Source of the DNA: a virus | DNA: 37,580 bases | Strand: one strand, 5' to 3' | IMG/VR virus record: IMGVR_UViG_3300043446_004071 | Span: 1 to 37,580 of that record | In this document: positions 4,652-19,418 of the stretch, one piece after another | Position numbering within the stretch: position 1 is the stretch's first letter | How the letters are laid out: every line of letters starts with the position of its first letter | Position numbers and translations under genes: made by a program | Notes under the pieces: model-generated | Seen by the model: only the letters and a program-made list of their open reading frames with translations | What the model was told of the DNA's origin: nothing | The model's database searches: none

Positions 4652-5179
4652 TCAAACCGTAGCGTATTGAGTAGATAAAGTTTTTACGTATTCAAGGACC
4701 TTCTCTGGAGTAGATTCCTCATAAGGGTCAGTATCTGCATTATCACGCATTCCTGGCTCTACAAACATCTTCTCAATTACTCCATTATTCAGAATGGCAG
4801 CATACCTCCAACTCCTTTCTCCAAAGCCAAGATTTGACTTATTTACAAGGTAGCCCATACCGCGTGTGAAGTAAGCATTCCCATCTGGAATAAGTTTAAC
4901 CTTACCGATGTTTTGGTCCTGAGCCCAAGAATTCATTACGAATCCATCATTTACCGAGATGCAATAAATCTCATCAACTCCTAGTGACTTAAACTCATCA
5001 TAAAGCTCTTCATATTTTGGTAACATGAAATTTGAACAGGTTGGAGTAAAAGCACCAGGAAGAGAAAAAATTACAACTTTTTTGTTTTCAAAAAGTTCAG
5101 AAGATTTGCGAACTACAAATTCTCCACCTTCGCGGAAAACAAAATCAACATTAGGAACTAGATGACCTTCTTTACGCAT
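4652..5179 (-). CDS. Peroxiredoxin (Prx5/AhpC-TSA type)
   Basis: 175 aa from the ATG at 5179, chosen because GGAGG lies 5 nt upstream. An ATG at 5191 forming TGATG with the preceding hli stop would add four residues. The active-site motif PGAFTPTCS places the peroxidatic cysteine at residue 48, the position usual in Prx5 enzymes; the downstream DGNAYFTRGMGY, SWRYAAILNNG and NADTDPYEESTP also match that family. It reduces H2O2 and organic peroxides using thiol or glutaredoxin donors. A longer reading to 5299 only overlaps the hli gene in another frame. It is the last gene of an operon with two hli genes and ends in a strong terminator. It fits protection of the infected cell from photo-oxidative damage. 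The donor is not visible in the window. Confidence 0.88.
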   Translation of the reverse strand: MRKEGHLVPNVDFVFREGGEFVVRKSSELFENKKVVIFSLPGAFTPTCSNFMLPKYEELYDEFKSLGVDEIYCISVNDGFVMNSWAQDQNIGKVKLIPDGNAYFTRGMGYLVNKSNLGFGERSWRYAAILNNGVIEKMFVEPGMRDNADTDPYEESTPEKVLEYVKTLSTQYATV

Positions 5180-5190
5180 AATGCCCTCCA

Positions 5191-5310
5191 TCAAAATACT
5201 CCAGGAATTACTTGACCAGTCACAAGATATGATCCGACCATAGCTAGAAAGCCAAGCATCGCAAGCCTTCCGTTCAGAATTTCGTTTTCGTGAGTCCATC
5301 CAAATTTCAT
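5191..5310 (-). CDS. hli: High-light-inducible protein, short (39 aa)
   Basis: ATG at 5310, with GAGGAG 8 nt upstream, to TGA at 5193-5191. The protein is almost only the chlorophyll-binding helix: ENEILNGRLAMLGF carries the E-x-x-N-x-R-x-A-M-x-G signature, followed by a hydrophobic stretch ending TGQVIPGVF. Hli proteins are single-helix thylakoid proteins that bind chlorophyll and carotenoid and dissipate excess light energy; cyanophages commonly carry them. At 39 aa it is among the shortest possible forms. Its stop overlaps a possible ATG of the peroxiredoxin gene (TGATG), so the two are translationally coupled. It differs from the upstream 69-aa Hli and is not a recent duplicate. Confidence 0.9.
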   Translation of the reverse strand: MKFGWTHENEILNGRLAMLGFLAMVGSYLVTGQVIPGVF

Positions 5311-5320
5311 AATAGTCTCC

Positions 5321-5407
5321 TCAGTAAGTTTCAGAAAGTTGATTGATAGAATGTGCTAGAAGCACTAAGAATGAAATACTCGTAAGAGTAAAAATTACTT
5401 CAGGCAT
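5321..5407 (-). CDS. Tiny predicted membrane peptide, 28 aa
   Basis: The ATG at 5407 overlaps the stop of the upstream hli gene (TGATG). The frame runs 28 codons to TGA at 5321-5323, just before the GAGGAG ribosome site of the second hli gene. The peptide starts MPEVIFTLTS, has a central hydrophobic run (SISFLVLLAHSI) long enough for one short membrane helix, and ends polar (NQLSETY). Size and placement recall small photosynthetic subunits, but I could not match it to a known Psa, Psb or Pet peptide. Support comes from exact coupling on both sides and its place between two Hli genes; codon statistics mean little at this length. Confidence 0.55.
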   Translation of the reverse strand: MPEVIFTLTSISFLVLLAHSINQLSETY

Positions 5408-5616
5408 CAAAAGACGCCGAAGAAAAGTTTACCAGTGAGTGCATAAGAAATAAATCCAGCAAGAATACCAAGCATTGCAGCCCTTGAATTATAAAGTTCT
5501 GCTTTTTCGGCATAGGTTTGCTCTTCGTGTCGTGCCATATCTTCCTCCGTAATGTACATTTGGGGTTCTTTTGCAAAAAGATTTTGTTGACCAAGCTCGT
5601 TTGTAACGACCGTCAT
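5407..5616 (-). CDS. hli: High-light-inducible protein (69 aa)
   Basis: The ATG at 5616 (MTVVTNELGQQNLF) is chosen over an upstream start at 5676, because the promoter -35 and -10 boxes lie between 5676 and 5648. Residues 1-40 are a polar stromal tail (KEPQMYITEEDMARHEEQ). Then AELYNSRAAMLG provides the E-x-x-N-x-R-x-A-M-x-G chlorophyll-binding motif, and one transmembrane helix ends in TGKLFFGVF. It is a thylakoid photoprotective protein, probably supporting photosystem repair during infection. It is the first gene of a four-gene overlapping operon ending with peroxiredoxin. No clear Shine-Dalgarno sequence precedes it, which is common in cyanobacterial systems. Confidence 0.93.
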   Translation of the reverse strand: MTVVTNELGQQNLFAKEPQMYITEEDMARHEEQTYAEKAELYNSRAAMLGILAGFISYALTGKLFFGVF

Positions 5617-5647
5617 AAAATTGTTACGTTTTGTTAACGACCTTAAC

Positions 5648-5676
5648 AATATATAGCAAGGCGGGGAGCTTGTCAA
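5648..5676 (-). promoter_or_regulatory. Host sigma-70 type promoter of the hli-prx operon
   Basis: On the minus strand TTGACA (5676-5671), 17-nt spacer, TATATT (5653-5648). Expected start of transcription is near 5641, about 25 nt before the hli ATG. The region between is noticeably more G+C-rich (GCTCCCCGCC) than the surroundings. Confidence 0.82.
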
Positions 5677-5693
5677 GGGGTCGGGTTTTACTA

Positions 5694-6491
5694 CTATGAA
5701 TCTTGAGTAGCAGATGAAGGTTGAGTTATTCTCCCTAAGTAGGGGTCATAATCCATTAAATATTTAATATCAAGATTTGGTCCATTTGTTTTCCAGAAAT
5801 TTAAAAGGGCATCGTGAGATGCTCTATGGAAAATATCAATGTGTTCTGGGTGAATAGAAGAACCTAATTCTAATTTATATAAAAGTAAAGGAATACTATA
5901 AGTGTTTCCAGAATTATAAACTAAATCATCAGCAACTGCTCTCGGTTTAACTCCATTATCGAGTTTATACTTATCATTCCTAACATGATGCTTTAACAAT
6001 TTTGTTGCATGATGTCTATTAATTACATAACAAGCTGTCGAAAAATCATTCACAAATCTCTTATGTAATTTTGCATGAAGGTCTCCAGTACATATAATTG
6101 CAATTTGCACAACATCCCAATCATACGGGAAACTACGAATAAAATCGTTCCAAGTAAAATTCCAATATTTTACAAGATCAAGATTACAATCATCTTCCAT
6201 AATGATTGCATATGGGCTATCAGATGTATCATACCAGTGTTTAATTGCTTTGAGATGTGATGTAGTACATCCAATTTCGCCAGAAGTCATATCTTTAGGA
6301 TAACATCCGTTTAAAATATGACCTAAATCATCTTCACGTCCATCATATGCTGAAATCCTTGTGTAGTTCTCGACTTCCCAATATTTAAATTGGTCCTCCA
6401 TATATTGCCTTCTTTCTGGCTGGTCATCCAGATTCAGATAATATATTGGACTAAAGTTTTTAAGTTTATATGTTGATTTATTTTTGTCCAT
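5694..6491 (-). CDS. Glycosyltransferase family 25-like
   Basis: 265 aa from the ATG at 6491, which overlaps the upstream stop (TGATG); a GTG at 6494 would add one residue. Family hallmarks: YYLNLDDQPERRQYME near the N-terminus, TSGEIGCTTSHLKAI, the acidic motif YAIIMEDDCNL, and FSTACYVINRHHA. GT25 enzymes (LPS/LOS glycosyltransferases and collagen-type galactosyltransferases) transfer a hexose from a nucleotide sugar. It is the last gene of the glycan cassette, followed without a terminator by the hli promoter. The acceptor (LPS, a virion protein or other) is unknown. Confidence 0.82.
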   Translation of the reverse strand: MDKNKSTYKLKNFSPIYYLNLDDQPERRQYMEDQFKYWEVENYTRISAYDGREDDLGHILNGCYPKDMTSGEIGCTTSHLKAIKHWYDTSDSPYAIIMEDDCNLDLVKYWNFTWNDFIRSFPYDWDVVQIAIICTGDLHAKLHKRFVNDFSTACYVINRHHATKLLKHHVRNDKYKLDNGVKPRAVADDLVYNSGNTYSIPLLLYKLELGSSIHPEHIDIFHRASHDALLNFWKTNGPNLDIKYLMDYDPYLGRITQPSSATQDS

Positions 6492-8038
6492 CACGCAAAA
6501 TACTTAACGATTTTTTCCCTGTCTCCTTTAATATAACTAATACATTCTTTTAAATCATCAGGAAGATTATTCCACAAGTTTACCATTTCTTGACCTGCGG
6601 TTTCTTTATTATAGTTTGTTCCCTGTGCATGTTGAATTTGATGTGCATAATCTCTAATCACAGGCCTCTTCATAATAAAAGAAATTGCATTCATTACAAG
6701 ATCCCAACCCCATCCCATTTTAATTGTTTCTGGCGTCATGATCTTTAAGAGATTTCTCTTATAAAAATCGCCAATTACATCTTTATGAATAAACCATACT
6801 GTTTCATCAGTACAAGCAACCATTTTAATATTTAAATCTTCCGATTGTAAACCATTAATATCGGTTTGATCTGAAGTATACCAGGTGTTAGTTATATCTG
6901 GAGCATAAACTCCCCACTCATAAAGATTATAATACTTTCTTGCATCTTCAACGAGTTGCTTCCAAGCGTCATATTCAGTATCTCCCTGAATATGAAGCAG
7001 AACTTTCTTATCATCCCTAAAAAGTTCCAGTGCCTTAGTGAATTGAGTTGTGAAGTAGGCAGAATCTCCAAGATTAATCCAACCATCCCTAGTATTGTTG
7101 TCATCACTATTGATAACAATGACATCATCAAACACTTCTTTTAGTGTGTCTTCAATAGCACAAGTTTTTTCAAACTGACGATTCCAGTTAAAAATAAATG
7201 GTTGGATATCTTTTACTCTAATTTGAGGAAATCTTTCTAAATAGCCCCTACTATTAAGATCGGCATGATCCCCATAATCATTACTAGTATTTAAATCTTG
7301 ATAAAGAATCTCAACATAAGGATTTAGAATACGTGCATAGTTAGTGATATTTGAAGACTTACCAATAATTGTTTTGCACATTGATAGCGTAGTTGCATCA
7401 ATCAAAACTTCATCACCCGCAAGAATCCTCTCAGAACTATTTGGTTCTGCTTGAATAGAGTAATGCAGACCAGCAGTACTCATGGTACGCTGATGATCAT
7501 AATAATGAATTATAACTTTAGAAAAATAGTTTTTAAACTCACATATCACATTACTTTGATCTGTTGTGAGAAATATACAATCATATTCACCAGAATTAAA
7601 CTCATCTTCTGTTGCTTTTAGATATTTTTCAATGGCAACAAATTCAGTATGCCCTACCCCATCAGTTCCACGATAATGAACACCCAAAGCATTTTTATAT
7701 TTTTCTCTAGGAATACTATTAATTTTTTTCTGCATTCTTTCGTTATAAGGTAAATATTTACGATACTTATCTAAATCAAAATCTTTAAAAGATGCCCAAG
7801 GGTAATCACAATCCCATCCATCTTGAGCATTAAATACCTTGTTAGCATCGTCAGATACACGAGAAGAATCAAACCAATGATCCGGTGTTCCATACAACAT
7901 AAACATTGATGGTGAAACACAGACTTGATTAAGATCAACTCCTTTACTCCCAAGTGTTCTAAAACTTGTCAAAATAGTAAGATAGTTTGAAAGGAATCCA
8001 CGATGCATTCCCTCAACTAATTTAATCTTAAAACTCAT
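6491..8038 (-). CDS. Two-domain glycosyltransferase: FUT8/NodZ-like domain plus second GT-like domain
   Basis: 515 aa from the ATG at 8038; AAAGGAG in the tail of the previous gene supports this start rather than 8122. Residues 1-250 resemble the fucosyltransferase fold of NodZ/FUT8/O-FucT: GVHYRGTDG at 119-127 fits their H-x-R-x-T-D sugar-nucleotide motif, then FLTTDQSN at 156-163 and TIIGKSSNITNYARI. From about residue 278 a different domain starts (FIFNWNRQFEKTCAIEDTL, VLLHIQGDTEYDAW, MGWGWDLVMNAISF), resembling GT-A-type transferases with a D-T-E motif in place of D-x-D. It may be a fusion adding two successive sugars. Domain calls are by eye; the second is weaker. Confidence 0.68.
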   Translation of the reverse strand: MSFKIKLVEGMHRGFLSNYLTILTSFRTLGSKGVDLNQVCVSPSMFMLYGTPDHWFDSSRVSDDANKVFNAQDGWDCDYPWASFKDFDLDKYRKYLPYNERMQKKINSIPREKYKNALGVHYRGTDGVGHTEFVAIEKYLKATEDEFNSGEYDCIFLTTDQSNVICEFKNYFSKVIIHYYDHQRTMSTAGLHYSIQAEPNSSERILAGDEVLIDATTLSMCKTIIGKSSNITNYARILNPYVEILYQDLNTSNDYGDHADLNSRGYLERFPQIRVKDIQPFIFNWNRQFEKTCAIEDTLKEVFDDVIVINSDDNNTRDGWINLGDSAYFTTQFTKALELFRDDKKVLLHIQGDTEYDAWKQLVEDARKYYNLYEWGVYAPDITNTWYTSDQTDINGLQSEDLNIKMVACTDETVWFIHKDVIGDFYKRNLLKIMTPETIKMGWGWDLVMNAISFIMKRPVIRDYAHQIQHAQGTNYNKETAGQEMVNLWNNLPDDLKECISYIKGDREKIVKYFA

Positions 8039-8039
8039 T

Positions 8040-8402
8040 TCAATCTCCTTTAAGTATACGATAACTATCTTCATCAAAATGTTGTGTTGAAAATTCAAAA
8101 AGTTCAGTATCTTCAAGAGCAATCATTTGATGCCTTAATCCACGATAAACATGAAACTTATCTCCCTTATTCAGGATTAGTTCATGCGCTAAAGCAATAT
8201 CATCTTTGTCATAATATTTTAACAAAATTTTTCCAGATTGTAAATAGAAAACTTCATCTTTCAACTCATGAAAATGCCAGGAACATTTTTTTCCCTTTAC
8301 AAAATAAAGAAGTTTTCCACAATACTCTTTAGAGTTTACGATCCATTTTTCAAATCCCCATCCTTTGGGTACAAATTTAATTTCCGAAGAAGTCATTTGC
8401 AT
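8040..8402 (-). CDS. Cupin-fold sugar-metabolism protein (phosphomannose-isomerase-like)
   Basis: About 120 aa. The start is ambiguous among ATGs at 8417, 8402 and 8396; 8402 follows AAAGGA, while 8396 gives MTSSEIKFVPKGWGFEKW. The core GWGFEKWIVN, LLYFVKGKKCSWHFHELKDEVFYLQSG and GDKFHVYRGLRHQM gives the two cupin motifs, with metal-ligand candidates H-x-H, E and a later H. This matches small cupins related to type II mannose-6-phosphate isomerase that accompany nucleotide-sugar genes. It overlaps the HAD gene, and both follow a sugar kinase and a nucleotidyltransferase, so it probably isomerises or epimerises the same sugar phosphate. The reaction is not determined. Confidence 0.72.
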   Translation of the reverse strand: MQMTSSEIKFVPKGWGFEKWIVNSKEYCGKLLYFVKGKKCSWHFHELKDEVFYLQSGKILLKYYDKDDIALAHELILNKGDKFHVYRGLRHQMIALEDTELFEFSTQHFDEDSYRILKGD

Positions 8403-8700
8403 TAATTCCTTTGTCATCTATATAGGCGTCACCAGCAGGTTTACCCATAAACAATTTGTGATATTTACATCCCCATTCTTTAAGTTGCAACTCTGTTATA
8501 TATCTCAAATTTTCCTCTGCTAGTTTTACATTATTATCATATCTACCCATGCCTCTTGCAGTAAAATAAACAATATAGTTTCCATCGTCGTAAAGTTGAT
8601 TGATTACTTTTATCCTATCTATTTTTGGTATAGAAGATAGATAGCTTTTACCATCATCTTTATCACAAATAGTTCCATCAATATCAATGACGTATTTCAT
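8377..8700 (-). CDS. HAD-superfamily sugar-phosphate phosphatase-like
   Basis: 107 aa from the ATG at 8700 (GGAG upstream); an ATG at 8709 is possible. It carries HAD motif I DIDGT (nucleophile D6, acid D8), motif II FTARGMG, and the late motif MGKPAGDAYIDDKG with the metal-binding acidic pair. This small capped-less form is common in capsule and LPS clusters beside nucleotidyltransferases. It lies between the PfkB-type kinase and the cupin and overlaps both. It occupies the place of GmhB, which removes the C7 phosphate in heptose activation, but its sequence is not typical GmhB, so this role is inference from context. Confidence 0.8.
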   Translation of the reverse strand: MKYVIDIDGTICDKDDGKSYLSSIPKIDRIKVINQLYDDGNYIVYFTARGMGRYDNNVKLAEENLRYITELQLKEWGCKYHKLFMGKPAGDAYIDDKGINANDFFGN

Positions 8701-9433
8701 TAATATCATCTCCGTTTAAAACATAAGTCCCAAAGTTCTGAACTGCTATTGCAGCTGCTTTATTGGCATAAGGTATTGCTTTTTCTATTGTACCACACTC
8801 TAAGTAAAAATAAACTAATGCAGATAAAAAGGTATCTCCTGCACCACAAACATCAAATACATTTACCTTTTCTCCAGGATAAGTTACGCCATTATATTCT
8901 GCTCCATCAGAACCTCTTGTAACAATAATATTATTGTGTTTACTTTTTAAAAGTTTTGATTCATTATCATTAATTTTAATAAAACAATTTGAATTTGGTA
9001 GGATTAATTTTTTACTATCAACAAAAACAGGGATTACAGAATTAAAAACGATTTCAAATAATTTTTGTTGAGTAATAAATCCTTTATTATAATCAGAGAT
9101 GACCAATGCATCAAATTTTTCATTTGGCATTTCACATTTCATTGGAGATAAAGTATCTTCAACGTCCACTCTTAATATTTGTTGATTATACTTTTCATCA
9201 ATATATCGTGTTTTATAAATTTTTTCTTTGTTAGTTAGCATGTATACTTCCATGCCAAATGCTTGGAGATTATTTCTAACATTCCATGCCATTCCATTTT
9301 TGCTTTCTTTTTTATGAAACTTAAGAATTGGTACTGGTGCTTCTGGATTCAATCTTTCACAGGCTCCATATACATACTCATCAATACAACTATCTCCGAT
9401 TAATAATATTTTGTATGGTTTTTGTTGTGGCAT
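8684..9433 (-). CDS. PfkB-family sugar kinase, HldE kinase-domain-like
   Basis: 249 aa from the ATG at 9433 (AGGTG upstream). GDSCIDEYVYG at 13-23 and RLNPEAPVPI at 27-36 match the kinase half of HldE/RfaE (D-glycero-D-manno-heptose-7-phosphate kinase). SDYNKGF at 113-119 and the catalytic GAGDTF at 197-202 are the ribokinase-family ATP and base motifs. At 249 aa it is shorter than the roughly 310-320 aa of the HldE domain. The usual GGAANVA motif is replaced by NGMAWNVRNN, so substrate specificity may have changed. The gene overlaps the nucleotidyltransferase by 44 nt; in bacteria the two activities are often one protein with the domains in the opposite order. Confidence 0.86.
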   Translation of the reverse strand: MPQQKPYKILLIGDSCIDEYVYGACERLNPEAPVPILKFHKKESKNGMAWNVRNNLQAFGMEVYMLTNKEKIYKTRYIDEKYNQQILRVDVEDTLSPMKCEMPNEKFDALVISDYNKGFITQQKLFEIVFNSVIPVFVDSKKLILPNSNCFIKINDNESKLLKSKHNNIIVTRGSDGAEYNGVTYPGEKVNVFDVCGAGDTFLSALVYFYLECGTIEKAIPYANKAAAIAVQNFGTYVLNGDDINEIRH

Positions 9434-9788
9434 AATCACCTATCCTATCAAAGAATATTAATTTAGCTGCATAATAAGAGCCTATTACAAACTTATCTCT
9501 CCAATCAGAACCAACAACCATTATATCAGGTTTATAGGATTTTACCAATCCTTCAAGTTCTTCATCACTAGAAAAAAATCTTACTTCATCTACTGACTTT
9601 AAATTTTCCAAAAAGAATTTTCTCTCATTCTGACTATGTATAGGTCTTGTTATTCCTTTTTTTTCTTTTACTCTTTCGTCAGTATCAATACCAACACACA
9701 AATAGTCACCAAGACTTTTTGCGTAGTTCAAAAGTTCAATATGACCTCGATGTAAAATATCAAATGTTCCGTTTACAAAAATATTCAT
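9390..9788 (-). CDS. Cytidylyltransferase-fold nucleotidyltransferase, HldE C-domain-like
   Basis: 132 aa, ATG at 9788. NGTFDILHRGHIELL (6-20) gives the G-T-F-D and H-x-G-H nucleotide-binding motifs. GIDTDERVKEKKG, MVVGSDWRDKFVIGS and the C-terminal YATTKTIQNI match the RfaE/HldE domain II layout. It would join a sugar 1-phosphate to a nucleotide (ADP in the HldE pathway) and release pyrophosphate. It sits next to a kinase of the same pathway type and a HAD phosphatase. No GmhA isomerase to make the heptose 7-phosphate is seen in the window, so the host or another genome region would supply the substrate, or the sugar is different. Confidence 0.86.
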   Translation of the reverse strand: MNIFVNGTFDILHRGHIELLNYAKSLGDYLCVGIDTDERVKEKKGITRPIHSQNERKFFLENLKSVDEVRFFSSDEELEGLVKSYKPDIMVVGSDWRDKFVIGSYYAAKLIFFDRIGDYATTKTIQNIINRR

Positions 9789-9789
9789 A

Positions 9790-10347
9790 TCAGTGCTTAA
9801 AAATAACTAATAAACCACGATGGCATCTTTCATTTGGTAAAGTAGACTTGTTAAATAACTTGTGATGGATATTTTGTTCTTTACACTTATCTAAAATTTC
9901 CACTAAATTAGGGAAACTATCCTCAATTTCTGGAAAAATATTTACGTCATGGTAGATTAAAATACCTTCTGGTAGAAGTAATTCATTATAAACATATTCA
10001 AACCATTCATTTGTATGATGATGGTCAGCATCTGACATTATAAAATCATACTTATCTTGTGAGGAAAAGATGAATTTTTTTTCGTCTGAGGTAACTATGT
10101 TAATTTTTTCAGAATATTTTTGTTTTACTTCATGTGGAATAACAAAACCAAAATCATACCAGTTATCAACAAGAGTGTATTTTGGATTGTTTTGGTTTGT
10201 TTCAACTGACTTTAGAATTTCGTCAGTGACTCTACCCCCACCAATACCAAGTTCTAAAATGTTATCTGGCTTCAAAGAAGCAATCAATCCACCAATAAGA
10301 TGTGCATGAACTAGATCAATCTTTACACTTTCATTTTGTCCGAACAT
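9790..10347 (-). CDS. Class I SAM-dependent methyltransferase
   Basis: 185 aa, ATG at 10347 after GGAGATT. LELGIGGGR (31-39) is the SAM-binding motif I, TLVDNWYDF a motif-II-like acidic turn, and FIMSDADHHHTNEWF the post-motif with metal-ligand-like Asp/His residues, as in O-methyltransferases that act on sugars. It ends 2 nt before the nucleotidyltransferase starts. Within the cassette it could O-methylate a nucleotide-linked or assembled sugar. Acceptor unknown. Confidence 0.75.
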   Translation of the reverse strand: MFGQNESVKIDLVHAHLIGGLIASLKPDNILELGIGGGRVTDEILKSVETNQNNPKYTLVDNWYDFGFVIPHEVKQKYSEKINIVTSDEKKFIFSSQDKYDFIMSDADHHHTNEWFEYVYNELLLPEGILIYHDVNIFPEIEDSFPNLVEILDKCKEQNIHHKLFNKSTLPNERCHRGLLVIFKH

Positions 10348-10349
10348 TT

Positions 10350-11228
10350 TTAATCTCCTACAATAGAATGAATATAATCAGAAACTTCTTGGGGAACAAT
10401 ACTATAAATCCACTTATATTGATCTCCTATTGGTTTGATTGTTTCTATAGTTCCAACACCAGCTCCATGAAGAATGCTAGTTCTTAAAGATTCGCCAGTA
10501 ATGGGATGATCAATAAAGATTTGATTATTCTTTACATATAATTTTTTCCAACTCTCACAGTGATCAATTTCCCCCCAAGAATTTACTATACCATAAGTAA
10601 CACCACTTCCTTCTCTATCAATAATTTCACTAGTGTATTTGTCCTTTGCATGGAAAATATGATTCCAGGTATCTTGTTCATTACGAATCAATGGCCAAGG
10701 TTTAAAAGTAAAAGTTCTGCAATCACTTTGTTCTGCAACAAATTTATTAAAATCTCTCCACTCATACCAAAATTGTTTGTCATTAGATGCAACAAATCCA
10801 GCATTAACAAAATCAGAACCAGCAATAATTCCACCATCACCATATGGTTCATAAAAAGGAACCATGCATGGTTGCGCTGCCCCAGCTTTACCAAGAAAAT
10901 TATTGTTTCTAACACCAATTAAATCTTTGTCAGACTCAATAACTTTATCAAGACTTCCAATACAAATGCAATCAGCATCTAATAAAATAATCATATCATA
11001 ATCTTCAACATATGGAAGACATGTGATTACCTTTATCCAGTCTTGATATTTAATTTTTTCAGACATAATCCAAGGATTTTCTTTTTTAATAATTTCGGTT
11101 TTTTTGGAATCAATAATATAAAAGTCAATCTCTGGATGAAAATGATTGATAGATTTTTTTAACTTTTCAGGTCTTAGATATACTGCATAATCATCAGTAC
11201 ACCATGTTACAGCAGCTATTTTTTTCAT
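10350..11228 (-). CDS. GT-A glycosyltransferase, GT8-like
   Basis: 292 aa; the ATG at 11228 overlaps the upstream stop (ATGA). MIILLDADCICIG puts a D-x-D metal and sugar-nucleotide motif at residues 84-86, preceded by a Rossmann-like first half. DFVNAGFVASN and the late HGAGVG are at the places where GT8 enzymes have their acceptor and second metal-ligand motifs. GT8 members are retaining galactosyl/glucosyltransferases or glycogenin-like. No membrane helix is seen, so it is likely cytoplasmic. The exact sugar is not predictable. Confidence 0.7.
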   Translation of the reverse strand: MKKIAAVTWCTDDYAVYLRPEKLKKSINHFHPEIDFYIIDSKKTEIIKKENPWIMSEKIKYQDWIKVITCLPYVEDYDMIILLDADCICIGSLDKVIESDKDLIGVRNNNFLGKAGAAQPCMVPFYEPYGDGGIIAGSDFVNAGFVASNDKQFWYEWRDFNKFVAEQSDCRTFTFKPWPLIRNEQDTWNHIFHAKDKYTSEIIDREGSGVTYGIVNSWGEIDHCESWKKLYVKNNQIFIDHPITGESLRTSILHGAGVGTIETIKPIGDQYKWIYSIVPQEVSDYIHSIVGD

Positions 11229-12019
11229 TTTTTAAATGGATAGTCAACAACAGTCCAACGATTTCCATTAGAATCGCAATTTATTTGAGTTATGTTATTC
11301 ATGCGAATGTCATGATAAAAAAGTTTTGGTTTTATTTTTTTAGCGACACTATCAACTAAACAAAAGAAACTACTATTGACACAATGAATTTCTTTTGCAT
11401 TTTCAATAAGTTTTATATAAGACAACATATTTGTAGTCTGACCCATTTGAATCTCAATAATTTTTGTATTGGGGACAGACCCGATTTGATTTCTTCTCCA
11501 ATTCCACAAATCAATTGGATAGTCACTTTCTGCGCTAGAGTTCTTATGGAGTATAATATATTCTTTTTCTCCCCCAACTAAGTTATTATAAACTTCATCA
11601 GATCCTGGTATTTGTTTTGGTAGGATAAATTTATCATATCTTTCTTTAAAAAGTATTCCTGCTTGCTCATAAAACTGCCTATCAAAATTAACAGCAAAGA
11701 ATTCTAGAGGAGAATTTAATCTTTGAAGATAACGATAATAAACTTTTTCAAATCCAATTCTAGTCACTGGCCATCCTTTTTCTTGTGCCCAAGGAAACAT
11801 TTCTTGCTCTAGGGTTGCCCAATCATCATTAAATGGATGAACAATAATATTATCAAAATCTTGATATAAGCAACTTACAGTTTCATAGTACCTATGATGA
11901 CAAGGAATATGAAGTCTTTCACATAACTGTTCAGCATAGGTATGAACGATCCCATTGCAAATAAAGTTGTCACCTAATGAGGTATGATGATGAAAAACTA
12001 AATCAGGTATTTTATTCAT
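11225..12019 (-). CDS. GT-B glycosyltransferase, heptosyltransferase-like
   Basis: 264 aa from the ATG at 12019, which overlaps the upstream stop (ATGA); an ATG at 12031 would add four residues. HHHTSLGDNFICNGIV recalls the SLGD start of ADP-heptose:LPS heptosyltransferases (GT9). The C-terminal half has the second Rossmann-like unit with ENAKEIHCVNSSFFCLVDSV, placed like the nucleotide-sugar site of GT-B enzymes. Its presence with HldE-like activation enzymes is suggestive of a heptose-type donor. Similarity is distant and by eye. Confidence 0.55.
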   Translation of the reverse strand: MNKIPDLVFHHHTSLGDNFICNGIVHTYAEQLCERLHIPCHHRYYETVSCLYQDFDNIIVHPFNDDWATLEQEMFPWAQEKGWPVTRIGFEKVYYRYLQRLNSPLEFFAVNFDRQFYEQAGILFKERYDKFILPKQIPGSDEVYNNLVGGEKEYIILHKNSSAESDYPIDLWNWRRNQIGSVPNTKIIEIQMGQTTNMLSYIKLIENAKEIHCVNSSFFCLVDSVAKKIKPKLFYHDIRMNNITQINCDSNGNRWTVVDYPFKK

Positions 12020-12594
12020 TTTATTATACATGTTGCTTGCTCATGAATTGTTCTCGAAATCCATTCTGAAGAGATTTTACTTTTATTACAGAACTCTACC
12101 CAGGCTTTGATTTCATGGTCTGCATATTCTGGATAGTTGTAGATTTCATCAAAAGATATAACTGTTCCTTCAACTATTCTATCACAAAGTTTATCCAAAA
12201 CAAATTTTGTTGAGGAATATAAATCAGCATCTAGATGAAGATAAGCGACTGTATCTTTATGTATTTCCAAAAAAGAATCCAAAGTGTCTTCAAACAATCC
12301 AACAACTAACTCAATATTAGAGTTTACGTTTGGTAAATTTCCATATGTACTATAAGTTCCTTTTTTTTGGTGATTTCCCCAATCTTCTGGAAGACCATAA
12401 AAACTATCAAATCCATATACTGTATTATTAGTACACTCTGATATTAAATTAATAGTTCTTCCGGAACATACCCCAAACTCCAACCAGAGTCCTTCATTCT
12501 GAACATTAGAAGTGACTGTTTTAAAGTATGTATTGTCCCAAGGCGTAGTTTTAAGGGACAAGATTTTTTTTAATTCGCCTTTTACACTAATCAT
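12016..12594 (-). CDS. TylF/macrocin-type O-methyltransferase
   Basis: 192 aa; the ATG at 12594 overlaps the upstream stop (ATGA). LEFGVCSGRT (38-47) is the SAM motif. YGFDSFYGLPEDW (60-72) and HLDADLYSST (120-129) with SFDEIYNYPEY (148-158) match the TylF-type sugar O-methyltransferases, whose acidic residues (D122, D124, D149/E150) bind a metal. This family methylates sugar hydroxyls of macrolides and glycans. It is the best supported of the three methyltransferase-like genes in the cassette, and suggests that the final glycan is O-methylated. Confidence 0.83.
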   Translation of the reverse strand: MISVKGELKKILSLKTTPWDNTYFKTVTSNVQNEGLWLEFGVCSGRTINLISECTNNTVYGFDSFYGLPEDWGNHQKKGTYSTYGNLPNVNSNIELVVGLFEDTLDSFLEIHKDTVAYLHLDADLYSSTKFVLDKLCDRIVEGTVISFDEIYNYPEYADHEIKAWVEFCNKSKISSEWISRTIHEQATCIIK

Positions 12595-13451
12595 ATTAAA
12601 ACTCCATTTTCATTAAATTGATAAACTTTATTTACATTTCCACGATATAAATTAGCAAAAAATGCAACATTGCCTGTGTGATTTACAAGATATTTACATT
12701 CTGCAACACATCTTAATGCTGAATCAAACCACTGAGACCAATCAATAGAATCTTTACCATGATGTTCCATTAAACTCCAGATGACTTTATTTGATTCTGT
12801 TGATGGAGTTTCTTCAAAAGTAACCAGTGCGTCTCCAAGTTGTTCATAAAAGTATTGAATAACTTGAGTTTGATCTGTCTGTAAAAGAACTTTAAAATTA
12901 GGGTTATCTCTTAAAATATTTTTTACAATTTTTAAATATTTAGTTGGGGAACCTAATTTCAACTCCGTTCCTTTATCAGTACCTCTATATAAAACCGAAA
13001 TTGTTTTTTGTGGTTCAAGCTTATACTTATTAATTAAAATATTTTTTCTCTCAGAGATAAGATCATTTGGATTAAAAAATCTATCTCTTATTTTATTATA
13101 AATGTCAAAACGATAAAGATCAAATTGACACTTGTTGGGATCCGGCAAAGGAATATCAACAAATAAATCCAAATCTATTTTTTCATTAATCTTATGAAAA
13201 TCAAGATAAATGTCTTGATTTGGATTTTTTTTAAAATGACGATATCCCAAAGAATAATCTATTCTTTGAGGTACAATTCCATGCCTTAGAAGAATGAGGA
13301 GAGAGTTGAAAACTTGAAATTCATTTGAATAAAATCCGCAATTCCAAAGGCAATATAACTCGTTAACTTCGGGGTGGGCAAGTAAATCACAGCCAGCATA
13401 CCTACCAGTTGTTCCTTTTGCTACAATATATTTACAGTTGTGAAGTTTCAT
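12591..13451 (-). CDS. FUT8/NodZ-like glycosyltransferase
   Basis: 286 aa; its ATG overlaps the preceding stop (TGATG at 13451). VLYRGTDKGTE (153-163) and LLQTDQTQVIQYF (189-201) repeat the signature pair seen in the larger two-domain transferase of this cassette. The C-terminal ECKYLVNHTGNVAFFANL corresponds to the donor-binding helix of the O-fucosyltransferase/FUT8 fold. It is probably a second fucosyltransferase-like enzyme. The H of the usual H-x-R-x-T-D is Y here (L-Y-R-G-T-D). Confidence 0.68.
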   Translation of the reverse strand: MKLHNCKYIVAKGTTGRYAGCDLLAHPEVNELYCLWNCGFYSNEFQVFNSLLILLRHGIVPQRIDYSLGYRHFKKNPNQDIYLDFHKINEKIDLDLFVDIPLPDPNKCQFDLYRFDIYNKIRDRFFNPNDLISERKNILINKYKLEPQKTISVLYRGTDKGTELKLGSPTKYLKIVKNILRDNPNFKVLLQTDQTQVIQYFYEQLGDALVTFEETPSTESNKVIWSLMEHHGKDSIDWSQWFDSALRCVAECKYLVNHTGNVAFFANLYRGNVNKVYQFNENGVLI

Positions 13452-14110
13452 CAGGCACCGACAACATATTTGCGAAGATTTTTTTTATCAGTATCAATAG
13501 GGAAACAAATCAAATATCCTTCTTGAAGATAGGACTCTACAATAATATGGGTTTCATCTAGAAGTTCATAAACAAAATCTAGACTTTCCCCTCCGTGCAG
13601 TGCTTTATTTTGAAAGTTTCCATTCTCATATGGACCCTCTTTGTAAATACGAATATCATCAATAACAATAATATCTTTACTTACATTTCTCTTTTGATGA
13701 ACAATGTGCAGTTCCCCCTCAAGAGGAATTTTGATGTAATCTGGATCATCACGAATTACTTCGTGATTATATTGATCACGATATGAGTCTGGAAAGTGAG
13801 CATCAAGAAAAAACAGTGCTGGGTTTTCATCCAATACATCAAGAACCTTAGGAAGTTCATCATGACTGTTTCCCAAATATATACAGACATTGGAGTTATC
13901 TTTAAAATAATCTACTGCTTCATTATAAATTCTATCAAGAATTTCAATTGAGTGCATCTTTAAGTCAGATTTTTGAAGTTGCGAAACTTGAAGTAAAGAG
14001 TTCTGACCATAAGAATCTAAAATCCCACCTGTTCCAGTTTCAACATAATGTTTAATATTAAAATCTTCAAACGTGGGAAGAAGATGAATTGCGTTTTGTA
14101 ATTTTGCCAT
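13451..14110 (-). CDS. Rossmann-fold, methyltransferase-like protein
   Basis: 219 aa, ATG at 14110. KHYVETGTGGILDSYGQ is in the place of a SAM motif I but lacks the usual G-x-G-x-G. HSIEILDRIYNEA, FFLDAHFPDS and IIVIDDIRIY give the strand-plus-acidic pattern of class I methyltransferases, with an Asp-His pair that could bind metal. It starts the run of overlapping glycan genes and lies 21 nt after the epimerase gene. It could be a methyltransferase acting on sugars or an inactive relative; the family is not named with confidence. Confidence 0.55.
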   Translation of the reverse strand: MAKLQNAIHLLPTFEDFNIKHYVETGTGGILDSYGQNSLLQVSQLQKSDLKMHSIEILDRIYNEAVDYFKDNSNVCIYLGNSHDELPKVLDVLDENPALFFLDAHFPDSYRDQYNHEVIRDDPDYIKIPLEGELHIVHQKRNVSKDIIVIDDIRIYKEGPYENGNFQNKALHGGESLDFVYELLDETHIIVESYLQEGYLICFPIDTDKKNLRKYVVGA

Positions 14111-14131
14111 TTTTATAGAATAATTTACGAC

Positions 14132-15178
14132 TTATTTTTTAATGCTCTGTTCGTTGATCCAAGTGTAGATTTTATGAATACCTTCTTCAAGACTTTGAGA
14201 ATAATCCCAATCCAACTTCTCACGAATTAAATCATTATTAGAATTACGACCACGAACTCCTAGTGGACCATCAATATGCTTCGTCTCAACATTCTTCCCT
14301 GCAACTTTAGCAGTAGTCTCAACAAGCTGGTTGATAGTAACCATTTCTTCAGAACCAATATTTACAGGCCCAATAAAATTGGATTCCATCAAACGACGAG
14401 TTGCTTCAATACATTCATCAACATAAAGGAAAGAACGAGTCTGTTGACCATCCCCCCAAACTTCAATGGTTCCGCCTTCCTTTGGAAGCTGCGCAACCTT
14501 ACGACAGATGGCGGCTGGAGCCTTCTCTCTACCACCATCCCAGGTGCCTTCAGGTCCGAAGATGTTGTGATACCTAGCTACACGGACAGGAATGCCATAG
14601 TTACGGTGATATGCGAAGTAAAGACGTTCTGAGAAGAGCTTTTCCCATCCATACTCAGAATCTGGATTCGCTGGATATGCAGAGTCTTCCCTACAATCTG
14701 GGTTCTCTGGGTCCAGTTGATTGTGTTCTGGGTACATGCAAGCAGAACTTGAATAGAAAATTTTAGTCTTATTTACACCGTCTCTTCTATTACGTTCCTT
14801 TTGCATTTCAAGAACGTTCAGGTTAATCGTAACAGAGTTATGCATAATGTCTGCATCGTTTTCTCCAGTGAAAACAAATCCCGCACCACCCATATCAGCA
14901 GCAAACTGATAGATTTCATCAAATGATTGGATAAGATTATCTGGAACTAATTGATAAAAATTTCCCAAGTAACCTTTGAATTGAAGACATGCTGCAGTAA
15001 ATTTTACATCTCGCAAATCCCCCTGAATAAATTCATGAGCTTCTGTTTCAGAGAACTCAGGGCGTTTAAGATCAACCCCACGAACCCAATATCCTTCAGA
15101 CCGAAGTCGTTTAACCATATGACTTCCAATAAAGCCACCAGCACCAAGTACAAGTGCTGTTTTCTTATAATCACTCAT
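14132..15178 (-). CDS. GDP-mannose 3,5-epimerase-like SDR sugar epimerase
   Basis: 348 aa, ATG at 15178. The extended SDR NAD-binding motif GAGGFIG is at 12-18, and YGWEK gives the catalytic Y176-x-x-x-K180. Two further residues diagnostic of GDP-mannose 3,5-epimerase are present in matching contexts: Cys147 in SSACMYPE and Lys219 in REKAPAAICRK. FAADMGGAGFVF and VDLKRPEFSETEAHEF also follow that family. Plant GME makes GDP-L-galactose and GDP-L-gulose from GDP-mannose; bacterial relatives epimerise other GDP- or ADP-linked sugars. It is the first enzyme gene of the cassette and is somewhat less A+T-rich than the transferases. It likely supplies an L-sugar donor. Confidence 0.85.
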   Translation of the reverse strand: MSDYKKTALVLGAGGFIGSHMVKRLRSEGYWVRGVDLKRPEFSETEAHEFIQGDLRDVKFTAACLQFKGYLGNFYQLVPDNLIQSFDEIYQFAADMGGAGFVFTGENDADIMHNSVTINLNVLEMQKERNRRDGVNKTKIFYSSSACMYPEHNQLDPENPDCREDSAYPANPDSEYGWEKLFSERLYFAYHRNYGIPVRVARYHNIFGPEGTWDGGREKAPAAICRKVAQLPKEGGTIEVWGDGQQTRSFLYVDECIEATRRLMESNFIGPVNIGSEEMVTINQLVETTAKVAGKNVETKHIDGPLGVRGRNSNNDLIREKLDWDYSQSLEEGIHKIYTWINEQSIKK

Positions 15179-16372: not shown

Positions 16373-16403
16373 AAAAAAAGAAGGTATGTCAATACCTTCT
16401 TTT
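16373..16403 (-). terminator. Rho-independent terminator after the porin gene
   Basis: An 11-bp stem (AAAGAAGGTAT / ATACCTTCTTT, 4-nt loop) followed on the minus strand by eight T. It lies about 35 nt after the porin stop. Confidence 0.85.
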
Positions 16404-16438
16404 AAAATATTTAATTTTCTTAACTTATGAGTAGTTTA

Positions 16439-17917
16439 TCAGAAGGTGAACTTTGTTTGAACCACGCCACCCCAACGAGATTCATCTCCTTTGATTCGTT
16501 GGTTATCACTCACATAAAATAGTGCAGGAGTAATACTGATATTATCGGAAACTTGATACTTATAGAAAACTTCTAGCATCGTTGCCTTATCTAGATTCTC
16601 TTCAGTAGGTGCTTGTCCAACTGCAACTCCAGCAGAGTTACGCTTGGCAAATACATCAGACCATTGGAGACCTGCAAACCAAGAGTCGGAATCAGTAGCA
16701 TTACTCTTCACACCACTTACAGTGTTCCAACCATATCCACCAGAGATGGAAGGAAGAATACCAGAAGTCAGTGGTTGCCAATAGGCATTCACAGAGTAAC
16801 TATTGGAGGTTTGACCAGGAACAAGAGTTCCAGAAGCTCCCTGGAAGCCATTGTAAGTACGAACTCGGGTGCCTTCAGTACCATAGCGATAACCAAGACC
16901 TAGACCCCAGTTTGTACCTTGATAACCAACCTGAGCCAGAGTATTCAGAGAACCAGTTTCATCAAAAACTCCAGTTTCGCTATCATCGCCATTTTGAGCA
17001 ACATAGTTTACGCCAGCCAGGAAGCCTGTATTACTCGGCTTCCAAAGAGCACCAAAACCAGAACCAGTAGCTTTATTGTAAACTCCAGGAGCGCCTGCAA
17101 CTTGGAAGAAATCAAGAATCTCAGACTTATATGCAGAAGGAATCCAAGCCATTTCAGTATTACGAACTTTCGCACCAGCAGTCAGAGTTGTGCTATTACC
17201 AAATACTGGGAACTGATAATAGAGTCGGTCAAGAACTACACTATCCCCAACAGTGGTTTGAGTGTTGTCTGCCTTATCAAGTTTAAACAGAGAAGAAGAT
17301 GAACCGAATGGGTCAGCACTGAAGTTTGCAGAACGAAGACGAGTACGTAGAAGGTCTTTGCCAGTAAATGAGGTATCAAAATTCAGACGTACATCATAGT
17401 TAAAAGCAACATTCCCTCGTTCAACTTTATCTCGTGTTTTATATTCTGGAACACCACCAAGAACGAAAGTAGTTTCACCACGAAGACGAGTAGTAGTAGA
17501 GAATTGTTGAGCTTCTAGTTGACCAACTTTAGATTCAAGACCATCTACCCGACCACGAAGAACAGAAAGTTCGTGAGAGAATTCTGTAGTGAGTTTCTTT
17601 AGCTCATCAGTAACTTCAGAAACACGATCAAGGCAAGCATTTAGAAGAGCAGCTGCTTCATAACGAGTCAGTGCTTGGCCACCTTTAAATGTACCAGAGG
17701 GGTAACCAGCAACACATCCATAACGCTCTACTAGAGAGGATAGTGCTTGATATGCCCAATCAGTTGGACGAACATCGGAAAATTGAGCTACGTTTGTTAC
17801 TTGGTCCTGATTTGAATATTGATTAATTGCAGTTAGATTCAGTTCTGATGCTTGAACTGCTGGTGATAGAATTACACCAAGAGCAGCAGGAGCAATCATA
17901 AGTTCTTTAAGAGTCAT
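16439..17917 (-). CDS. Cyanobacterial SLH-domain outer-membrane porin (iron-uptake/OprB type)
   Basis: 492 aa from the ATG at 17917; a TTG seven codons upstream is less likely. The N-terminal signal peptide ends around SPAVQA/S (residue 23). Residues 47-100 are an SLH domain (FSDVRPTDWAYQALSSLVER, YPSGTFKGGQALTRYEAA), which anchors cyanobacterial porins to peptidoglycan-linked polymer. A coiled-coil spacer follows (about 100-138). Beta-barrel strands run from about 140 to the end, closing with VVQTKFTF and the terminal Phe that outer-membrane insertion needs. This is the layout of cyanobacterial SomA/SomB and iron-uptake porins, complete and apparently functional. The gene is less A+T-rich than its neighbours, which suggests capture from a host. 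It follows a secreted lysozyme-like gene by 36 nt in the same unit. Confidence 0.9.
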   Translation of the reverse strand: MTLKELMIAPAALGVILSPAVQASELNLTAINQYSNQDQVTNVAQFSDVRPTDWAYQALSSLVERYGCVAGYPSGTFKGGQALTRYEAAALLNACLDRVSEVTDELKKLTTEFSHELSVLRGRVDGLESKVGQLEAQQFSTTTRLRGETTFVLGGVPEYKTRDKVERGNVAFNYDVRLNFDTSFTGKDLLRTRLRSANFSADPFGSSSSLFKLDKADNTQTTVGDSVVLDRLYYQFPVFGNSTTLTAGAKVRNTEMAWIPSAYKSEILDFFQVAGAPGVYNKATGSGFGALWKPSNTGFLAGVNYVAQNGDDSETGVFDETGSLNTLAQVGYQGTNWGLGLGYRYGTEGTRVRTYNGFQGASGTLVPGQTSNSYSVNAYWQPLTSGILPSISGGYGWNTVSGVKSNATDSDSWFAGLQWSDVFAKRNSAGVAVGQAPTEENLDKATMLEVFYKYQVSDNISITPALFYVSDNQRIKGDESRWGGVVQTKFTF

Positions 17918-17953
17918 ATTTTTATAAGTAAAGGACAAAAAATTTTAAATGAA

Positions 17954-18604
17954 TTATGAAGTTGGTGCTTCATAAGTGAATCTATTGAGGTAGTCATAAG
18001 CATAACGGTCTCGTGGGCCTTTAATTCCCCAACCCAACCAAGAAAAAGCTAGTCTCATATAAAAATTGACTGGCTGATTGGGGAGTTTAAGTTTATCTTC
18101 AATTCGCTTCCATTGTGGCTCGGTAAACACATAATCTAATTGAGTATCAAAAGAAGATGGGTCTCCTCCTACTTTTCTAGCGTGAAGACCTAATCCGTGA
18201 TAACGGTCGGATGAAGTAAATTGAATAATACCATAACCACCACGTCTACAAGAGTGATATGGAATCCTCGCTCCACCTTCGCAAATATTTGAAATAAACT
18301 GACTTTCTTGTTTAATATTTGCCATAATAGTAGCTAAAGCAACTTTGTCAGTAATTCCACGCTCTTGAAGAGAATTAAGGGTAAATAATTCGTTTGAATT
18401 ACAACCTTTACAAGTTAGCCATTTTTCTTTTGGCTTTTCGTCTGGAGCAACCTCTTTGGTCGCTGTCTCCTGAATTTGCATCATTTTTTCTAGCTTATTT
18501 TCTGAATTTGAAATAGATGCTAAACTCGGTGTTGGCAGTGTTGCCGCTGATGTTGCAGCCATTCCTAAAAGAGAAATAGCCACAAGTGTAAGGGTTTTAT
18601 GCAT
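17954..18604 (-). CDS. Secreted lysozyme-like protein (phage tail lysozyme fold)
   Basis: 216 aa, ATG at 18604. A clear signal peptide (KTLTLVAISLLGMAATSA) is followed by a polar linker to about residue 60, then a domain with ANIKQESQF (catalytic-type Glu100), GGYGIIQFTSSDR (122-134) and DTQLDYVFTE (153-162). That order (N-x-x-x-E-S-x-F, G-x-Y-G-x-x-Q-x-T) is the phage tail lysozyme/muramidase pattern. Tail lysozymes usually lack a signal peptide, so this one seems exported by the host Sec pathway, as a secreted endolysin or a periplasmic modifier. It precedes a porin in one transcription unit that starts with a structured leader. Confidence 0.8.
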   Translation of the reverse strand: MHKTLTLVAISLLGMAATSAATLPTPSLASISNSENKLEKMMQIQETATKEVAPDEKPKEKWLTCKGCNSNELFTLNSLQERGITDKVALATIMANIKQESQFISNICEGGARIPYHSCRRGGYGIIQFTSSDRYHGLGLHARKVGGDPSSFDTQLDYVFTEPQWKRIEDKLKLPNQPVNFYMRLAFSWLGWGIKGPRDRYAYDYLNRFTYEAPTS

Positions 18605-18717
18605 TAGTTTAAGGTAACTCTACATCGCAGCTTTGGTGAAGTGTCACTCCCTCTTCCCAGAGGGCATCACCCTGCGCTCTCGTTTCACAAAACTTCACCT
18701 TGAAGTGTGAAGCTCTC
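18605..18717 (-). promoter_or_regulatory. Structured 5' leader RNA candidate
   Basis: About 105 nt between the predicted transcription start (near 18711) and the lysozyme ATG, clearly more G+C-rich than surrounding DNA. On the transcript: a hairpin ACTTCA-agg-TGAAGT at 18706-18692; a hairpin CCCTCT-GGGA-AGAGGG with a GNRA tetraloop at 18664-18649; and an 8-bp long-range match GGTGAAGT (18699-18692) with ACTTCACC (18642-18635) that competes with the first hairpin. Two exclusive folds suggest a switch. No known riboswitch class was recognised. Confidence 0.5.
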
Positions 18718-18746
18718 ATTATGTCTCAGTATTTATCGCCTGTCAA
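18718..18746 (-). promoter_or_regulatory. Host sigma-70 type promoter for lysozyme-porin unit
   Basis: Minus strand TTGACA (18746-18741), 17-nt spacer, CATAAT (18723-18718). The spacer also contains GATAAATA, close to the late consensus, so the unit might fire early and late. The -35 box overlaps the stop codon of the preceding gene. Confidence 0.75.
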
Positions 18747-18992: not shown

Positions 18993-19418
18993 ATGAACTG
19001 GAAATACAATCAAGAAGATTACCTAGAAGCATCAAAAGAATTTGAAGGATTTGTTTATCTTATTACTAATCTTACTAATAATAAAAAATATATTGGTAAA
19101 AAATCTTTCTGGACTAGAAAAAAAGACCCTAAAACGGGTCGTAGAAAAACTAAAGAAAGTGATTGGAAAAATTACTTTAGCTCTTGTGACCAACTCAAAG
19201 AAGATGTAAAGACTTTAGGTAAAGATAATTTTTCAAGATATATTCTTTATCTTTGTCCTCACAAGAAGTCAATGTCTTACTATGAAACTTATGAACAATT
19301 TAAAAGAAATGTTTTAATGACTGATGATTATTATAATACAAATATTGAAGGTAAATTCTTTACTAGTGAAAGAGAATCCATTTATGAATCCGTATTAAAA
19401 GCTCAAGAAGCTCTATAG
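18993..19418 (+). CDS. GIY-YIG endonuclease (Seg/Hef-like homing endonuclease)
   Basis: 141 aa and the only plus-strand gene of the window. GFVYLITNLTNNKKYIGKK gives the G-x-V-Y and Y-I-G halves of the GIY-YIG motif; a following Arg (FWTR), Glu in SYYETYEQF and Asn in YYNTNIEG are in the right order for the catalytic R, E and N. The domain makes a DNA break at a specific site. There is no obvious C-terminal DNA-binding repeat, so it is a minimal form; related free-standing genes occur in T4 (seg) and in many cyanophages. It lies between a bidirectional terminator and a divergent promoter, as if inserted between two transcription units. Confidence 0.82.
   Translation: MNWKYNQEDYLEASKEFEGFVYLITNLTNNKKYIGKKSFWTRKKDPKTGRRKTKESDWKNYFSSCDQLKEDVKTLGKDNFSRYILYLCPHKKSMSYYETYEQFKRNVLMTDDYYNTNIEGKFFTSERESIYESVLKAQEAL

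Follow-up and report, generated by a model that had tools for sequence, protein, structure and literature searches.

The locus studied lies on the minus strand, from position 18746 to position 16373, of the window, by which we mean the whole 37,580-nt stretch of DNA that was analysed (IMG/VR record IMGVR_UViG_3300043446_004071, positions 1 to 37,580). A preliminary description of this DNA had named a promoter, a leader RNA, a signal-bearing lysozyme, a porin with an SLH domain and a terminator, and each of these parts was found in the sequence. Read in the direction of transcription, a promoter-like site is followed by a leader, a lysozyme-like gene, a porin gene and a terminator-like hairpin. 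The features, with the flanking marker gene, are as follows.

18993–19418, plus strand: segE-like GIY-YIG endonuclease gene, which flanks the locus and serves as a synteny marker (same position in loci L062, L073 and L075)
18718–18746, minus strand: overlapping promoter, assigned by sequence match (TTGACA at 18746–18741, late-type GATAAATA at 18737–18730, CATAAT at 18723–18718)
18689–18716, minus strand: first hairpin, then a short U run, between promoter and leader core (predicted fold)
18616–18679, minus strand: conserved leader RNA core, assigned by covariance model (GAG, then a P1-P2-P3 hairpin with a GNRA-type loop, then AUGUAGAGUU), 11 nt before the AUG
17954–18604, minus strand: exported lysozyme-like protein (PF18013, phrog_512), 216 aa, signal peptide at about residues 1–29
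17918–17936, minus strand: remnant of the porin's usual 5' UTR, identified by eye, GTCCTTTACTTATAAAA (compare GTCCTATAGTACAAAA in relatives), without a TAAATA promoter
16439–17917, minus strand: SLH/OprB-type porin, 492 aa, with signal peptide, SLH domain (46–89), long helix (85–138), 16 strands and C-terminal Phe
16376–16403, minus strand: terminator-like 12-bp stem with T run, of intrinsic type, shared by both genes in the window

The possibility that the contig is a host-phage chimera was excluded, because the record is that of a phage, also carrying nrdA, nrdB and segE-like genes, and because the same porin gene occurs in the isolated Synechococcus phage S-SRM01 (68% identity over the full length). 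Intrinsic-terminator-like sites numbered eight in the region, compared with 2.5 in shuffled sequences. Three observations on the surrounding genes can be added. Several phage records, and phrog_447, give the segE-like gene of the window and its relatives the label 'NAD synthetase'. At 28761–25435, a LAGLIDADG match (PF14528) forms an in-frame, intein-like insert in NrdA, and downstream of the porin (5694–15178) lies a long block of sugar-nucleotide and glycosyltransferase-like genes, including an epimerase (PF01370) and a cytidylyltransferase (PF01467). The comparisons below draw on sets capped at 80–120 loci, many of which are closely related.

The promoter-like sequence TTGACA-N17-CATAAT at 18746–18718 is an 11/12 match, and its full order is TTGACA-GGC-GATAAATA-CTGAGA-CATAAT. 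The cyanophage late promoter has been given in a review as NATAAATA, and overlapping early and late promoters have been proposed for middle-type transcription (PMC2984593). The GATAAATA element of the window matches this published late promoter, and, judged by its sequence, the site fits such an overlapping early/late (middle-type) arrangement. Among 88 distinct relatives, [CAG]TAAATA occurred within 140 nt upstream of the leader in 82 (12.6% in shuffles), and the composite of TTGAC, TAAATA and a -10 element in 58 (0.05% in shuffles). Thus, the promoter-like site that had been called early-type is present, but we rejected a purely early promoter, since the late-type TAAATA overlaps the early elements here and in the relatives. 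Comparison by eye showed that many relatives have the hairpin and T run at the corresponding position after the promoter.

Of all the parts of the locus, the leader is the most novel. The regions upstream of the lysozyme relatives share the pattern GAGCC-hairpin-GGATGTAGAGTTC-N11-ATG, with an invariant GAG on the 5' side of the hairpin and AUGUNGARUU on its 3' side. A covariance model (R1) built from 18 relatives, with the window left out, gave a sole strong match in the 37.6-kb window, at 18679–18616 (46.3 bits; E = 9.6e-13, a rough value because of the short calibration). In an alignment of 92 leaders (82 distinct), which was fitted to the model and so favours the structure, 12 of the 13 pairs showed two-sided compensatory changes; paired cells amounted to 96.5%, compared with 46–62% for slid versions, and none of 500 shuffles reached the observed score. 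RNAalifold, run on an alignment independent of the model, found compensatory changes in eight of nine pairs. One G-U pair is conserved in 80 of the 82 distinct leaders, which points to an RNA rather than a DNA palindrome. Given the match to a model that had not seen the window and the compensatory changes, the leader RNA named in the preliminary description is real.

Marine lysozyme loci often have a short form of the leader (29–47 nt) with the same flanks. When these were added, the set comprised 120 distinct leaders with 18 P1 sequence pairs, and 476 of 480 P1 cells were paired, the first two P1 pairs of the short forms being partly selected by the search pattern and the other two free of selection. 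The distance from the leader motif to the start codon was 12 nt in 85 of 92 leaders and 10–13 nt in all 92. No Rfam 15 family, such as the glutamine riboswitch or wcaG, matched at the leader, and a likeness of its flanks to a K-turn or a glutamine riboswitch, considered by eye, was unconvincing. Two RNA matches noted elsewhere were a near-threshold glutamine riboswitch in phage DSL-LC03 (L244, 2657–2713) and, in a contig from a freshwater phage, an abiF RNA (L055, 4356–4392).

The gene that lies 3' of the leader was then compared among the 92 leaders, with the downstream proteins classed by motifs. It encodes the lysozyme in 70 cases and an RlpA-like protein in 19, and in the other three it is cut by contig ends (the first residues being RlpA-like in two and lysozyme-like in one). 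RlpA (PF03330), here an exported lytic transglycosylase found behind the same leader in L008, L009, L075 and many contigs from the pattern scan, is not homologous to the lysozyme; both are exported wall enzymes. Locus L075 has the order nrdB-segE-leader-RlpA-porin, and L062, L073 and the window have the same order with the lysozyme instead. Because L075 is collinear with L062 and L073, and further on carries the epimerase of the window at 89% identity, we conclude that the enzyme was swapped in place under the leader. A second RlpA lineage, with different P1 sequences, is found in two diverged contigs (L251 and L324).

Complete genomes have one strong leader match each, before the lysozyme in S-SRM01 and DSL-LC03 and before RlpA in S-PM2 and S-CREM1; S-CREM1 has one further, insignificant match (E = 0.39). 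No lysozyme of the PF18013/phrog_512 family was found in S-PM2 or S-CREM1. In S-CAM7, one weak match falls at the lysozyme and a further match within nrdA, and the short form was found by pattern in S-RIM8. Some marine relatives, among them S-WAM1, L230 and L242, have the lysozyme and no recognisable leader. A host origin of the element was also considered and rejected: the leader was absent from all 151 genomes searched in one family of freshwater cyanobacteria (a search with no positive control, so that its empty result carries little weight), and the single genome match (G005) lies on a contig with a phage-type RlpA gene. The leader is attached to exported wall enzymes as a class, and not to one gene.

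The lysozyme-like protein of the window contains a PF18013 domain (42.1 bits; cut-off, 28.2). Its cysteines (Cys 65, 68, 108 and 119) are kept in nearly all aligned members, and a putative catalytic glutamate, E100 in the sequence KQES, is invariant in the family alignment. In a profile search against phi29 gp13 (3csr), a PF18013 tail lysozyme, E100 aligned with gp13 E45. In contrast to gp13, the window protein has a signal peptide and the cysteines, and lacks the tail/peptidase domain. Export was judged from N-terminal hydrophobicity, which is present in 75 of 80 distinct relatives, and the signal peptide of the window protein was read by eye. Many marine forms (loci L166–L243) end the signal in a lipobox-like AAC and are perhaps lipoproteins; the freshwater forms, by contrast, appear to be soluble. 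In the AlphaFold model the core is predicted with confidence; Foldseek against the PDB gave no significant match (none with E < 0.06), the best being GH19 chitinase and MltE-type enzymes.

The earlier view of the protein as a Sec-exported lysozyme-like enzyme is thus upheld by the signal and four cysteines conserved in the family. Since the signal peptide is conserved, a role as a virion tail lysozyme is disfavoured, and the protein is probably exported and not part of the virion. Relatives of its gene occur in 408 phage records; as in the window, this gene comes after nrdA/nrdB (DSL-LC03, S-CAM7) or after the segE-like gene (S-CAM7, S-SRM01). These features suggest that the product of 18604–17954 is probably an exported murein hydrolase of a T4-like freshwater cyanophage, and likely its lysis enzyme.

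We read the leader as a putative cis-regulatory RNA of this exported wall hydrolase. From its conservation, covariation and position, and from its presence on two exported wall enzymes that are not homologous, we infer that it would set the timing or the amount of the enzyme, most likely via translation or mRNA stability, so that a Sec-routed enzyme that reaches the wall would not be made too early. One possible form of this regulation, which we put forward only tentatively, is a lysis-timing switch that responds to a metabolite, or to a protein of the phage or host, as a signal of infection or host state, and then allows synthesis of whichever exported wall enzyme is carried. To the same tentative degree, the leader may instead be a 5' stabilising or ribosome-loading element without regulatory input that keeps the message abundant. 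In favour of this, only about 5 nt separate the end of the late promoter from the GAG at several marine loci, which would place the hairpin at the 5' end of the transcript. However, in the freshwater loci the promoter is about 75 nt upstream of the leader, and the strong conservation of the unpaired flanks, the fixed spacing and the restriction to one functional class all argue against this view.

A mechanism like that of T4 gene e was also weighed. In T4, RNA structure keeps the early lysozyme message silent, and late transcripts, which start within the fold, escape this block; the leader is reported to repress about 100-fold and to delay lysozyme synthesis, and gene e is not apparent in S-PM2, syn9, P-SSM2 or P-SSM4 (PMC3014915). 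The cyanophage leader resembles that of gene e in being a structured RNA at the start of a lysis gene of a T4-like phage with early and late promoters, and this precedent, together with the late-type TAAATA sites near the leader, would favour early read-through transcripts that hide the ribosome site and late ones that start inside the fold and are translated. However, the cyanophage hairpin is distinct, and the leader is found on Sec-exported enzymes of two unrelated families. The late promoter is not inside the hairpin as in gene e; TAAATA lies upstream of the entire hairpin, so that late transcripts would retain it. In addition, most predicted folds leave the AUG unpaired (the long fold of the window pairs it weakly), and therefore simple sequestration of the gene e type is not predicted. 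We consider this mechanism rather improbable. Because the late site is upstream of the hairpin and the AUG is mostly unpaired, we propose that the leader would act via the hairpin and its conserved flanks, with some partner.

The second gene encodes a complete porin, as had been described. The OprB (53.9 bits) and SLH (32.7 bits) domains are both above cut-off, and the NCBIfam model por_somb (NF033921) matches over positions 1–485 of 485 with 292.6 bits (cut-off, 100). The predicted structure comprises an SLH part of low confidence, a long helix and a 16-strand barrel; the best Foldseek match was OprB, and the SLH porin OmpM1 of Veillonella was also among the matches. The protein therefore shares with the SomA-SomB-like SLH porins, OprB and OmpM1 the signal peptide, SLH domain, long helix, 16-strand barrel and terminal Phe, but it belongs to a phage-only clade that is tied to PstS. 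Full-length relatives with 71–80% identity were found in at least 80 IMG/VR contigs, among 293 candidate stretches.

The comparison with host porins that had been suggested gave a clear result: the phage porins form a single clade (SH-aLRT 99, UFBoot 100), which includes one contig mis-binned into a Microbacteriaceae genome, and this clade is nested with 15 host porins of Synechococcus and Cyanobium, the nearest of which share about 60% identity with the phage proteins. In comparisons with the window, dN/dS was about 0.15–0.23, which indicates purifying selection. By these sequence comparisons, the porin qualifies as a phage auxiliary gene (AMG) that appears to have resided in phages for a long time. 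Two contigs assigned to a 'Microbacteriaceae' genome in GTDB (L085 and L379) carry cyanophage genes, namely porin, nrdB and hli, and the leader with RlpA, which we ascribe to misbinning. Short phage SLH proteins of about 280–290 aa (4932–5771 in S-PM2, L003; 4935–5813 in S-CREM1, L002) are annotated as S-layer protein or iron uptake porin. Like the window porin, the S-PM2 'S-layer' protein and T4-GC 425 represent phage SLH proteins, and in S-PM2 the gene lies upstream of hli, as porin genes do in many freshwater phages; however, these proteins have about 280 aa and match the window porin only in their first, SLH part.

The preliminary description had regarded lysozyme and porin as a movable, self-contained module, possibly with coordinated wall opening and porin insertion. 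In the window, only 36 nt separate the lysozyme stop from the porin start, the porin has no promoter of its own and the terminator is shared; this gap without a promoter was seen only in the window, and in six other loci hydrolase and porin are at most 300 nt apart. However, a survey of their adjacency found a hydrolase within 5.5 kb upstream of the porin in only 22 of 81 loci (19 lysozyme, three RlpA), so that the pair does not recur as a module, and 43 porin loci for which 4.5 kb or more of upstream DNA is available have none. An hli/prx block follows the porin in 42 of the 81 loci, and no locus has both a hydrolase and hli/prx. In other phages the porin is usually preceded by its own TAAATA promoter, and tRNA genes separate hydrolase and porin in L062 (5512–5583) and L073 (4024–4094), with none in the window. 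The lysozyme gene is common among phages and occupies a fixed, syntenic place after nrdB-segE, and the porin is mostly found in other contexts.

Because of these separate gene contexts and the porin's own promoter elsewhere, the idea of a movable envelope module with a single function fails and is very improbable, and coordinated wall opening and porin insertion found no support. The two genes have separate histories, and the tight pair in the window is unusual. The two genes are probably co-transcribed in the window phage, whose porin may have lost its own promoter and come to be transcribed along with the hydrolase message. A second small hairpin, with the conserved loop GCC[GT]CAACTANT[TC]GC and varying stems, was noted after a TAAATA site before many phage porins (L001 7944, L014 5091, L035 7946, L048 7946 and others); three further copies (L199, L227 and L230) are at places that do not precede a porin.

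As for the role of the porin, phosphate uptake is the best reading, rather than the iron uptake that its family name suggests. Among the 15 host sister porins, nine adjoin pstS and eight adjoin a CHAD protein, compared with none and one, respectively, of 63 other host porins. On the porin's strand, 28 of the 83 loci examined carry a PstS gene after the phage porin, in 25 of these cases no more than 700 nt away (the 83 include the window, the mis-binned contig and several near-copies). Where PstS follows directly (L017, L019, L082, L067, L033 and others), the order is the same as in host Pst clusters. No pstS was found in the 37.6 kb of the window, and a Pho box preceded only six of 55 phage porins and is thus not general. 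SYNW2224, a Som-homologous porin of Synechococcus, is reported to be induced by phosphate stress (PMC3170327), and phage-borne phosphate genes, pstS and phoA, are known in cyanophages (PMC3037559).

The phosphate reading follows from this linkage to PstS in hosts and phages, the induction of SYNW2224 and the known phage pstS genes. The porin may therefore be likened to pstS and phoA as a phage-borne means of phosphate acquisition, but it would differ in acting at the outer-membrane step. In the open literature, the word 'porin' is absent from the paper on those genes (PMC3037559), and the S-SRM01 paper is silent on the porin of that phage. We propose that the phage porin derives from a cyanobacterial porin of a Pst phosphate cluster, and that it would maintain or increase phosphate entry into the infected cell, where phosphate would be passed to the host or phage PstS.

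It is possible, though we think it doubtful, that the protein is instead an iron-uptake porin or a general nutrient pore. The NF033921 model is named 'iron uptake porin', and four of the 15 host sisters adjoin a different ABC transporter, one of the iron or phosphonate type (SBP_bac_6 with an ABC permease). However, the proximity of PstS to more of the host sisters, and its place behind many phage porins, speaks against this. Of the earlier suggestion of nutrient or iron import, nutrient import thus stands, with the PstS neighbourhood favouring phosphate, and iron is less likely. Still less probable is superinfection exclusion, in which the porin would alter the cell surface and exclude other phages by competing with host porins. 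The lambdoid phage PA-2 encodes a porin with a superinfection-exclusion effect, which counts in favour of this idea, as does the protective role suggested for the SLH protein of S-PM2 (PMC2984593), but the linkage to PstS would be unexpected.

Taken together, we think it likely that the locus hosts two independent things, an exported hydrolase with its leader, which probably serves a T4-like freshwater cyanophage as lysis enzyme, and a Pst-derived phage porin that aids phosphate entry. T4-like cyanophages are abundant. A control RNA that is kept while the enzyme changes marks the likely lysis gene in each genome, so that lysis timing becomes testable; if the reading as a switch is true, it is the control RNA that is retained and the enzyme that is exchangeable. 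The phage porin, by its tie to PstS, would add the outer membrane, the first to be crossed, to a phosphate pathway that is already known to be reprogrammed by phages.
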